A DNA stretch of 64,000 nucleotides from Nostoc sp. CENA543. Lineage in GTDB: Bacteria; Cyanobacteriota; Cyanobacteriia; Cyanobacteriales; Nostocaceae. The stretch covers positions 6,844,501 to 6,908,500 of the forward strand of contig NZ_CP023278.1 in NCBI RefSeq assembly GCF_002896875.1, read 5' to 3'. Position 1 is the stretch's first letter, and every line of letters begins with the position of its first letter. This document shows, piece by piece, positions 16,188 through 43,044 of this stretch. The notes below the pieces were generated by a model, which was given only the letters and a program-made list of their open reading frames with translations, was not told where the DNA came from and made no database searches. Both the position numbers and the translations under genes were made by a program.

Positions 16188-16577
16188 CTAAAATCGAATT
16201 CCTAACTGTCCGTTAACTCCCCGTACAGAATTATAACCAGCACCAACGAAGAGGCGATCGCTAGCCTTTACTTGTACACCACCAGACAAGGCCACACCTT
16301 TATCTTCAGAGTAATATCCCACCCCCACATAAGGCGAAATCACAGGTAAACTCAAGAACTTCAGCACATCTACCCCTGTAGCACCATCTTCGCCTGTACC
16401 TAACTCTACACCCAAGTTTAATGCTCTAGCTCCCACAGCATAAGTGACATCCCCATCTTTCGCACCCACTGAAACCCAAGGTTGAGGAATAATTTGCGCC
16501 GCCGCCGGACGAGGAGCAAATAAAGCTAAACATCCTATTGATGCGATGAGCGATTTAACGATAATTGCTCTGTTCAT
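16188..16577 (-). CDS. Exported small beta-strand-rich protein
   Basis: 129 residues. The Sec signal peptide is clear: MNRAIIVKSLIASIGCLALF then PRPAAAQ as cleavage site (about residue 28). The mature part is short alternating strands with Gly and aromatic residues (ISPYVGVGYYSEDKG, RLFVGAGYNSV) and ends in QLGIRF, a terminal aromatic typical of outer-membrane beta-barrels. Only about 100 residues remain, enough for a small barrel or part of one. Ribosome site AGAGGA upstream. Confidence 0.7.
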   Translation of the reverse strand: MNRAIIVKSLIASIGCLALFAPRPAAAQIIPQPWVSVGAKDGDVTYAVGARALNLGVELGTGEDGATGVDVLKFLSLPVISPYVGVGYYSEDKGVALSGGVQVKASDRLFVGAGYNSVRGVNGQLGIRF

Positions 16578-16767
16578 GCTTTTTCCTCTCTACCTGTTAA
16601 TAAAAGTCAGTGATTTATGAGAATATCTCACAAACAAATATGAAAGATGGACTGTAACTTATACTCAACACTGTTAACCTCAAGACTAACCAATATTTAA
16701 AAAAGTTTCTCACTTTTGCAGCCGAGAATAGTGATCAAGTTACTTGATAATCTAATGTGAATCTCAC

Positions 16768-16958
16768 GCATACCGCTAAAGCGGAACCCACAGGGTAGAC
16801 GCAAAGGTAAAAAGAACGAAGCAAGGTTAAACTCTGCGTACCTCCGCGTGAACCTCCCTTTTCTACGAGAGGCTACGCCAACGGGTTCACCAGTCGTCTC
16901 CGGAGGGAAACCCTCCTACAACGCTGTTTCACCGCGCTCCCTCTGCGTTGAAAAAAAC
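16768..16958. repeat. Cluster of interspersed palindromic repeats
   Basis: Includes CCGCTAAAGCGG (16772-16783), the motif ACGAGAGGCTACGCCAACG (about 16865-16883) and GTCTCCGGAGGGAAACCCTCC. Such modular repeats are scattered through Nostoc genomes. They fill the gap between recR and the small exported protein gene; no reading frame. Confidence 0.6.
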
Positions 16959-16959
16959 T

Positions 16960-17556
16960 CTAATCTAACTCTCTTCTTCCTTCCAAAGCCCTAGCTAAAG
17001 TCACCTCATCAGCGTATTCTAAATCACCACCCACAGGTAAACCAAAAGCAATACGCGTCACCTTCGTAAACGGCTTCAGTAACTGTCCTAAATATAATGT
17101 CGTGGTTTCTCCCTCCACACTAGGACTAATTGCCATAATTACTTCTTGGGGTTTTTGTTGACTTACCCGTCTAATTAAAGCCTGCACATTCAACTGCTCA
17201 GGGCCAATACCATCTATGGGAGAAATCACCCCACCCAATACATGATATTTACCCTTATACTCACGAGTTTTTTCCAAAGCAATCACATCACGGGAATCAG
17301 CCACCACACAGATAGTCTGAGGATCACGGTTGGGATTACGACAAATTTCACAAACTGGTTCAGCCGAGAGATGAAAACAAACAGAACATAAACCCACTTG
17401 CTTTTTAGCATCAATCAAAGCTTGCGCTAAAGCCTCTACTTCCGCTTCAGGACGCTTCAAAATATGCAAAGCTAATCTTTGAGCAGATTTAGGGCCAACT
17501 CCAGGTAGGCGTTGCAACTGTTCAATTAATTTTGCTAAAGGACGTGCGTAAACCGT
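16960..17556 (-). CDS. recR: Recombination mediator RecR, probable ACG start
   Basis: Acts with RecF/RecO to load RecA at gaps. Helix-hairpin-helix [18 protein letters not shown]4 zinc finger (CSVC...CEIC), and a Toprim domain ([26 protein letters not shown]) are complete. The expected N-terminus [15 protein letters not shown] is encoded upstream, but no ATG, GTG or TTG precedes it before the in-frame stop. The codon at 17554-17556 is ACG, eight bases after GGAG (17565-17568 as CTCC on the plus strand), where an ATG is expected. The first standard start is TTG at 17517, which would remove 13 residues of the first helix. I annotate from the ACG. Confidence 0.85.
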
Positions 17557-17713
17557 AGTTTTATCTCCAAAACGTTTTTACCTTAACTATGATGACATTT
17601 TCCACAGGTTAGTAGTCAGGACTTGAGAGCTGATTCATCCAGAAAATCTCTCTAAAATCCCAAATTTAACATTGTTTAGACCAATTTTTCCTGGATGCTA
17701 CAAGCCCCTAGAT

Positions 17714-18271
17714 TCAATTATCTTGACAAATCACTTGTCGCATTTTACGCATATTTGCAGGTAATTCCAAGTTCATCGCCTGTTGAATAAAAATTGACGG
17801 GATGGGGATATCGGGGGTAGCTTGAACACTGTAGGTGAGTAAAGTTCCTTTACCGCAGTCTTGTAACTCTAAATTGGCAGAAAAGTCTAAAAAAGTACCT
17901 TTTTCCATTTGAAAATTTACTTGCTGCCCTGTGACTTCCACAACTTTCAGATAAATTTCTACTTGCGCGGTAAAAAAGAAAAAGGATTTTTGGGCTTTTT
18001 GGTACAGGCGTTTAACTTCGCCTTGTTGTAAAACTACACTTTTGGTAATGTCGGGAAAGTATTGTACCCAGAGGGGGTAGTCAGTAATTTTTTGCCATAC
18101 CTGCGATCGCGCTATTGGTAAGTACATACAAGCACTAACCGCACCACCGCAGACAGTATGCGATCGCGTCTGTACTAAAATCTCCCCCTGCATCATCAGG
18201 CGTTGCTGTTCCTGATTCCAAGTCATACCTGAACCTGTTATCATTAGCTCTGAAATATGGGTTACAGACAT
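17714..18271 (-). CDS. SRPBCC-family (START-like) protein
   Basis: 185 residues with the polyketide cyclase/dehydrase or coenzyme Q-binding domain: ARSQVWQKITDYPLWVQYFPDI, then SVVLQQGEVKRLYQKAQ and TLLTYSVQATPDIPIPSIFIQQAM. This lipid-binding helix-grip fold is common in cyanobacteria; ligand unknown. A GAGGAG site precedes the ATG at 18271. Single gene. Confidence 0.8.
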   Translation of the reverse strand: MSVTHISELMITGSGMTWNQEQQRLMMQGEILVQTRSHTVCGGAVSACMYLPIARSQVWQKITDYPLWVQYFPDITKSVVLQQGEVKRLYQKAQKSFFFFTAQVEIYLKVVEVTGQQVNFQMEKGTFLDFSANLELQDCGKGTLLTYSVQATPDIPIPSIFIQQAMNLELPANMRKMRQVICQDN

Positions 18272-18629
18272 CGTTACTCCTCAACTCCACCATCTGCATA
18301 GGTTGTGACTATAAACCAGATCAACGGCGAAGTACAACCTCATTGCTATTTAATTCCAGCGTTCCATAATAGTTTTCCGGAATTAGCTATATATAGTAAT
18401 TATGCGGAAATTATATGTAAAAATCAGTAGGTTTAATTACAAACACTAATCTACACCTAAACCACTCCAGCTATTGAAATCAATATACCAAAGAAAATTC
18501 TGGCTGAAATCCTGTTTACATCTCAGGTTGTTGCCCTGTAAAACCTTTTTGCCATTTCTCTGAAAAAAGAGATGAAAATTCTTGCTACCCTGTCAATGTA
18601 ATCCAATTTGCAATTAGGAGGAAAATACC

Positions 18630-42967: not shown

Positions 42968-43044
<77 letters not shown>

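Follow-up and report, generated by a model that had tools for sequence, protein, structure and literature searches.

A conserved ACG at the probable start of recR in Nostocaceae and proposed non-AUG recR starts across cyanobacteria

Introduction

The recR gene of Nostoc sp. CENA543 lies on the minus strand of the window analysed here, a stretch of 64,000 nucleotides (contig NZ_CP023278.1, positions 6,844,501 to 6,908,500), and raises the question of where translation begins in a reading frame that offers no conventional start codon ahead of the conserved N-terminus of its protein. The original prediction, made from the letters of this DNA, placed the start at an ACG, noted that a single T-to-C change of an ATG would produce it, and called for a check of the sequencing reads. 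In E. coli, where infC and pcnB have AUU starts, initiation at ACG should be very poor, and at GUU poorer still; in plants, plastid genes carry ACG starts that are corrected by RNA editing. To our knowledge, selection is known to maintain a non-AUG start in few genes of bacteria, and among the literature matches listed for our queries, judged by titles and abstract openings, none dealt with non-canonical initiation of recR or recF in cyanobacteria.

The recR frame and its product

The frame extends on the minus strand from an in-frame TAA (17578-17580) to a stop at 16960. The codons that follow the TAA are AAA CGT TTT GGA GAT AAA ACT ACG GTT TAC..., and from the TAA onward ATG, GTG and TTG are absent until a TTG at 17515-17517. 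The lack of a standard start codon downstream of the in-frame stop and ahead of the conserved N-terminus was therefore borne out, as were the position of the GGAG, exactly 8 nt before the ACG, and the rank of the TTG as the first conventional start, whose use would shorten RecR by 13 residues. The relevant features are as follows:

16960..17556, minus strand: recR coding sequence read from the ACG, 198 amino acids plus stop; matches TIGR00615, with RecR_HhH, RecR_ZnF, Toprim_4 and RecR_C domains
17554..17556, minus strand: ACG, the probable recR start codon; ACG at 76/76 Nostocaceae loci, Shine-Dalgarno (SD) gap 8 nt
17565..17568, minus strand: GGAG, SD core 8 nt 5' of the ACG; columns -12 to -9 conserved at 0.99-1.0 (n=76)
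17545..17556, minus strand: ACG GTT TAC GCA, codons 1-4, in which synonymous change is absent (76 sequences)
17551..17553, minus strand: GTT, codon 2; rival start here and the probable start in several other cyanobacterial families
17578..17580, minus strand: TAA, in frame and upstream of recR (frame reading)
17515..17517, minus strand: TTG, first conventional start codon, rejected; TTG in only 51/76 Nostocaceae sequences
17586..17591, minus strand: CATAGT, possible -10 element inside a conserved CATCATAGTTAAGG stretch

Against TIGR00615, the RecR of the RecFOR pathway, the product scores 273.6 bits (cut-off 162.55) and covers profile positions 2-196 of 196, with the HhH, Cys4 zinc finger, Toprim and C-terminal domains (PF21176, PF02132, PF13662 and PF21175) in place; it is the single RecR match in its genome. 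The gene is intact, its protein is a full-length, ordinary RecR, and the start signal is the only unusual part. The suggestion that repair may be altered finds no support.

Conservation of the ACG in the genus and in Nostocaceae

Within the genus, 13 genomes were searched, that of Nostoc sp. CENA543 included, and all 11 with a RecR match have the ACG, the GGAG 8 nt upstream and no conventional start from the in-frame stop to the ACG. The same holds across the family: at the 76 Nostocaceae loci read, which comprise the best-scoring matches and others selected from those listed (lower-scoring genera being covered by the strict pattern only), the codon is ACG in all 76 and ATG in none, with an SD gap of 8 in 75 and 9 in one. 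ATG, GTG and TTG are missing from codons -2 to +3 in every locus (canonical codon in 0/76), and from 15 codons upstream to codon 3 in 72 of them. A strict pattern, GGNG-N8-ACGGTTTACNCNCG, was found in 203 of 217 Nostocaceae genomes, 209 of which have a RecR match; its reversed form, used as a control, occurred in 2 of the 217. Six genomes have a RecR match and were missed by the pattern (G055, G079, G080, G154, G189, G190), and the one read among them, G080, has ACG with a gap of 9. A six-frame search gave no RecR match in 8 of the 217 (G004, G009, G033, G043, G096, G103, G204, G213), among them a three-contig genome of the genus itself, and one genome, G023 (contigs C15 and C92), carries the recR start motif twice along with two RecR matches. 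Among the named genomes with ACG are those of Nostoc, Sphaerospermopsis, Scytonema, Plectonema, Richelia, Symploca and Phormidesmis priestleyi ULC007; a second genome labelled P. priestleyi (L056) has ATT, not ACG.

This distribution rules out a sequencing error or a recent mutation at the recR ACG and gives no support to the idea that an ATG of this genome lost its T to a C. Close relatives had been expected to start with ATG at this codon if the prediction was right; they do not, because they share the ACG. The ACG of recR has been conserved for a long time and belongs to a pattern that extends more widely through the phylum.

In the 76 Nostocaceae sequences the start region is under constraint at the nucleotide level. 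Codons 1-4 have zero synonymous entropy and make up 4 of only 6 such codons among 197, the other degenerate codons showing zero synonymous variation in 2 of 193; the one exception at codon 4 is an ACA (Thr) in a single sequence. From codon 5 onward synonymous changes abound and the protein is kept, which indicates that this part of the frame is translated. At codon 14, the position of the first conventional start in this genome, 51 sequences have TTG and the remaining 25 have CTG, CTA, CTC, TTA or, in one, a codon for another residue.

Start codons in other cyanobacteria and beyond the class

A further 72 genomes of the order and class were searched, and the RecR match found in 69 of them was read in every case. 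The assigned starts are ATT in 20, CTG in 14, ACG in 12, ATG in 10, GTT in 6, TTG in 5 and GTG in 2, so that 52 of 69 are non-AUG; where several near-cognate codons were possible, the assignment preferred the one with an SD, a rule that favours the non-AUG side. Some loci required a decision: in L196 the assigned ACG lies two codons upstream, both codons being ACG, and the locus is counted as ACG; two neighbouring codons of L246 are CTG; L240, whose assigned ATG lies nine codons upstream, is counted as canonical; and L195, L199 and L222, which have TTG or GTG 8-9 codons upstream without an SD, are counted as non-AUG. Independently of assignment, ATG, GTG and TTG are missing from codons -2 to +3 in 53 of the 69 loci (a canonical codon is present in 16), and from 15 codons upstream on in 48. 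Some loci leave little choice of start, since just one codon separates the candidate from a stop, as in L198 (TAA-ACC-ATT) and L197 (TAG-CTT-ATT). The picocyanobacterial family f25 has CTG in 13 of 14 recR genes and TTG in one, and in the six loci assigned GTT no ACG is present and the GTT itself stands 7-8 nt from the SD core.

Outside the class Cyanobacteriia the picture is uniform. A canonical codon lies within -2 to +3 in 26/26 non-oxygenic relatives in the phylum and in 53/53 loci outside the class (52 of other phyla and one Gastranaerophilales), giving an ordinary recR start at this place in 79/79.

Shine-Dalgarno spacing and its association with the start codon

The SD follows the proposed start codon. 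Among 99 distinct ACG loci with an SD, the gap is 8 in 95, 7 in three and 9 in one, and among 28 distinct AUU, GUU or AUC loci the median gap is again 8 to their own start, codon 2, which lies one codon further down. The resulting shift in spacing between the two groups has p = 3.6e-10, and in a subset of loci from outside Nostocaceae (11 versus 19) p = 1.2e-5; duplicates L150, L218 and L237 were removed, and L201 was scored by its GGAG at gap 8. Since the SD tracks the proposed start lineage by lineage, ACG is favoured over the neighbouring GTT in the present genome, and 17554-17556 is the most likely recR start, with both the ACG and the GGAG spacing recurring in relatives.

The presence of an SD is also tied to the kind of start. 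Outside f25, an SD at 4-11 nt precedes 35 of 39 non-AUG recR genes versus 2 of 16 with AUG, GUG or UUG (Fisher p = 7e-8, a value uncorrected for kinship); with a stricter anchor, in which the gap is measured from codon 1 or 2, the counts are 33/40 non-AUG versus 0/15 canonical. The two canonical genes with an SD are L228 (AUG) and L202 (UUG), and four non-AUG genes outside picocyanobacteria have none, as is also true of the picocyanobacterial CTG starts (0/13). Families f6, f7, f8 and f10 each contain both start states, with the SD on the non-AUG side only. Kinship was addressed with a tree built on InfC, RecA and RecF of 30 genomes, used because a tree of the RecR protein itself had too little resolution (9 of its 75 inner branches starred, L255 left out). 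This tree requires at least 13 changes of the recR start codon and at least 5 of its AUG/non-AUG state. Across well-supported branches the SD goes along with the start state in 3.8 of 4 independent pairs on average and opposes it in none; the phylogeny-aware pair test gives p = 0.125 and cannot reach 0.05 because there are only 4-5 independent pairs.

Two readings of this association may hold together. We prefer constant weak output, because lineages with AUG mostly lack the SD; an SD may also be needed merely to use a non-AUG codon, and AUG without an SD may be the default in cyanobacteria, since absence of the SD is common in their ordinary genes.

Control genes

Four genes were compared in 30 control genomes (28 of the 69 and two Nostocaceae), picked so that every recR start class was represented (25 non-AUG, 5 AUG) and hence yielding no rate for recR itself. 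An ordinary start was found for recO in 30/30 and for infC, within 16 codons, in 30/30, one of them by a distant TTG only: GTG or ATG lies near the infC start in 29, and L269 has just a TTG, 13 codons upstream. For recF the count is 28/30, both exceptions being picocyanobacterial, and for recA 27/29, L315 having been dropped as cut by a contig edge; the two recA exceptions (L297, L300), in which a stretch of 16 codons contained no canonical one, were treated as cases of a longer N-terminus. An SD precedes infC in 0/30, recF in 0/28, recO in 0/30 and recA in 17/26. Reading recF in 14 picocyanobacterial genomes gave ATT in 8 and ATC in 5 (together L350, L351 and L359-L369) and ATG in one at the start position, with a GTG or ATG also present 2-6 codons further upstream in L359 and L366; in five non-picocyanobacterial genomes the same comparison gave ATG or GTG. 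Judged on these four genes, non-AUG starts are not habitual in the genomes compared and mark recR, together with recF in picocyanobacteria.

Cyanobacterial infC (L256-L285) mostly has GTG in a CCT-GTG context, with the SD absent. A second, weaker infC-like gene was seen in 5 of the 30 genomes, namely that of Nostoc sp. CENA543 (G000:C1:5740232-5740690), G269, G364, G240 and G333.

Alternative explanations of the missing start codon

Gene callers tend to annotate this recR from the TTG at 17517, the first conventional start codon in frame, and homologues starting there would have overturned the ACG. A protein shorter by 13 residues is nevertheless very unlikely: the corresponding codon is not ATG, GTG or TTG in 25 of 76 Nostocaceae sequences, codons 5-13 vary synonymously with the protein kept, the RecR profile matches from residue 2, and positions -2 to +2, counted from the ACG, include a canonical codon in each of the 53 loci from outside the class. 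We therefore consider the TTG ruled out by its variation within Nostocaceae and by the canonical position in outside loci. The GTT of codon 2 (17551-17553), with the ACG as merely the preceding codon, is a better candidate. It follows the ACG in 76/76 Nostocaceae loci without any nucleotide change, it is the probable start in families f2, f17, f19 and f20, and in six loci that have no ACG it is the assigned start, at 7-8 nt from the SD core. In Nostoc sp. CENA543, however, the SD stands 11 nt before the GTT, a shift of one codon; the third base of the ACG is invariant at all 76 loci, where a plain Thr codon would be free to vary; and L055 and L215 have the ACG without the GTT. A GTT start is thus unlikely here.

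Other alternatives accept the ACG and differ in how it is read. Plastids descend from cyanobacteria and edit ACG starts, so C-to-U editing of the recR ACG into AUG could be imagined, although we know of no cyanobacterial editing of ACG starts. Relatives are not confined to ACG or ATG: their ATT, GTT and CTG codons, and the AUC among their starts, stand at or next to the same place, and C-to-U editing of AUU, GUU, AUC or CUG cannot yield AUG, which rules this explanation out as extremely improbable. An initiator tRNA specialised for ACG is equally improbable; no support for it was found, the initiator anticodon-stem pattern has 16 matches in this genome with the anticodon CGT in none of them, and its only CAT match is the tRNA-Met at 42968-43044 of the window. 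Start codons also differ between relatives, and this explanation, too, is rejected. A different objection grants real initiation at ACG and assigns it a regulatory role, through IF3 or the state of translation as in infC, in place of a fixed low dose. According to PMC13009471, decoding at starts of this kind is modulated by IF3, and the AUA start of ccpN responds to medium; the second infC-like gene in five of the 30 genomes could also be counted in its favour. Lineages with AUG and no SD should, however, lose IF3 sensitivity, and the tree requires at least 5 such switches, so that we regard this role as doubtful.

A weak start probably kept by selection

The explanation we favour, and consider fairly likely from the comparative evidence, is that initiation at recR is genuinely non-AUG and that its weakness is kept by selection, limiting the dosage of RecR and perhaps of RecFOR. 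The observed basis is the absence of ordinary starts, the conservation, the spacing, the codon turnover and the SD/start association; initiation by the ribosome at ACG, its low yield and low dosage as the selected trait are what we infer from it. Translation of RecR would begin with the ACG of 17554-17556, where the usual initiator tRNA, with its CAU anticodon, would mispair at the middle base, helped by the GGAG at a good distance, 8 nt upstream. Selection would act on the weakness of the start and not on the exact codon, so that a lineage could have ACG, AUU or GUU, or in rare cases AUC, usually accompanied by a good SD, or CUG without an SD in picocyanobacteria, or alternatively AUG, GUG or UUG mostly without an SD. 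Either combination of start and SD would lead to slow initiation and hold RecR low.

A broader reading, which we offer tentatively, places RecFOR under a dosage ceiling at translation initiation, with recR and picocyanobacterial recF at weak, drifting starts (ACG, AUU, AUC, GUU, CUG) and total strength conserved by a trade between start and SD. An excess of RecF is harmful in E. coli, which would fit such a ceiling; if it exists, ACG and GUU would count among the natural starts that a core gene can have at the scale of a phylum.

Two further mechanisms were considered. RNA structure over the start was sought by folding 26 ACG loci singly and comparing them by eye, and nothing recurrent appeared. 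Translational coupling to an upstream gene is not general, judged on 62 non-AUG loci (the 52 and ten from Nostocaceae): 37 have no same-strand open stretch of 70 codons ending at most 250 nt upstream, a count in which short flanks at many loci may hide some stretches, and in 3 such a stretch ends within 10 nt or overlaps.

Relation to known systems

The proposed recR starts resemble the weak ones known from infC, pcnB and ccpN, although the gene and the codons are different. Like these, they combine an N-terminus without ATG, GTG or TTG (0/76 Nostocaceae, codons -2 to +3), a conserved non-canonical codon (76/76 loci, 203/217 genomes) and a strong, well-spaced SD (gap 8 in 75/76), the last being absent from the picocyanobacterial CTG loci (0/13). 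E. coli pcnB is reportedly limited in translation by its start, according to Binns and Masters in 2002. The likeness to E. coli infC and pcnB lies in the weak non-AUG start; the gene and phylum differ, and in recR the codon turns over (ACG, AUU, GUU, CUG) as the weakness persists. Nor does cyanobacterial infC share the AUU of its E. coli counterpart, having GTG or ATG near the start in 29/30 genomes. Plastid ACG starts are alike in the codon at the start position and differ in that recR relatives use codons that C-to-U editing could not mend.

Another parallel comes from S. aureus, where, as described in PMC13009471, ccpN (AUA), cvfC1 (AUU) and infC (AUA) have conserved non-canonical starts coupled to a strong SD, the same coupling as in recR. 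In poor medium, reporters of ccpN, cvfC1 and citZ yield about 10% of what AUG gives. Those starts were shown by ribosome profiling and reporters, whereas the cyanobacterial recR starts are proposed from comparison; ACG does not occur in the main text of that paper. A CUG start in E. coli is given as 0.86% of AUG in PMC11497404.

If our explanation is right, a single core gene of DNA repair retains non-AUG starts, of several different codons, through much of a phylum, and weak initiation as a selected trait becomes directly testable through swaps of start and SD. Gene callers restricted to ATG, GTG and TTG would likely truncate or miss recR and picocyanobacterial recF. ACG initiation in these relatives of plastids would also be relevant to how the ACG starts of plastids arose. 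A 2016 survey lists recR as absent from three cyanobacteria (PMC5101192), an absence that deserves a re-check given the start-codon problem.

Sequences flanking recR

A search for Rfam families in 16500-18300 returned none. A sigma-70 consensus scan of 17400-17800 gave a single match, level with the shuffled mean and away from CATAGT. Upstream of recR, a CATCATAGTTAA-like stretch at 17586-17594 recurs in most loci of the genus and in many Nostocaceae loci, and may be a -10 element, in which case the leader would be very short. Directly 3' of the gene, the segment 16820-16945 resembles, by eye, a repeat type common in Nostocales.
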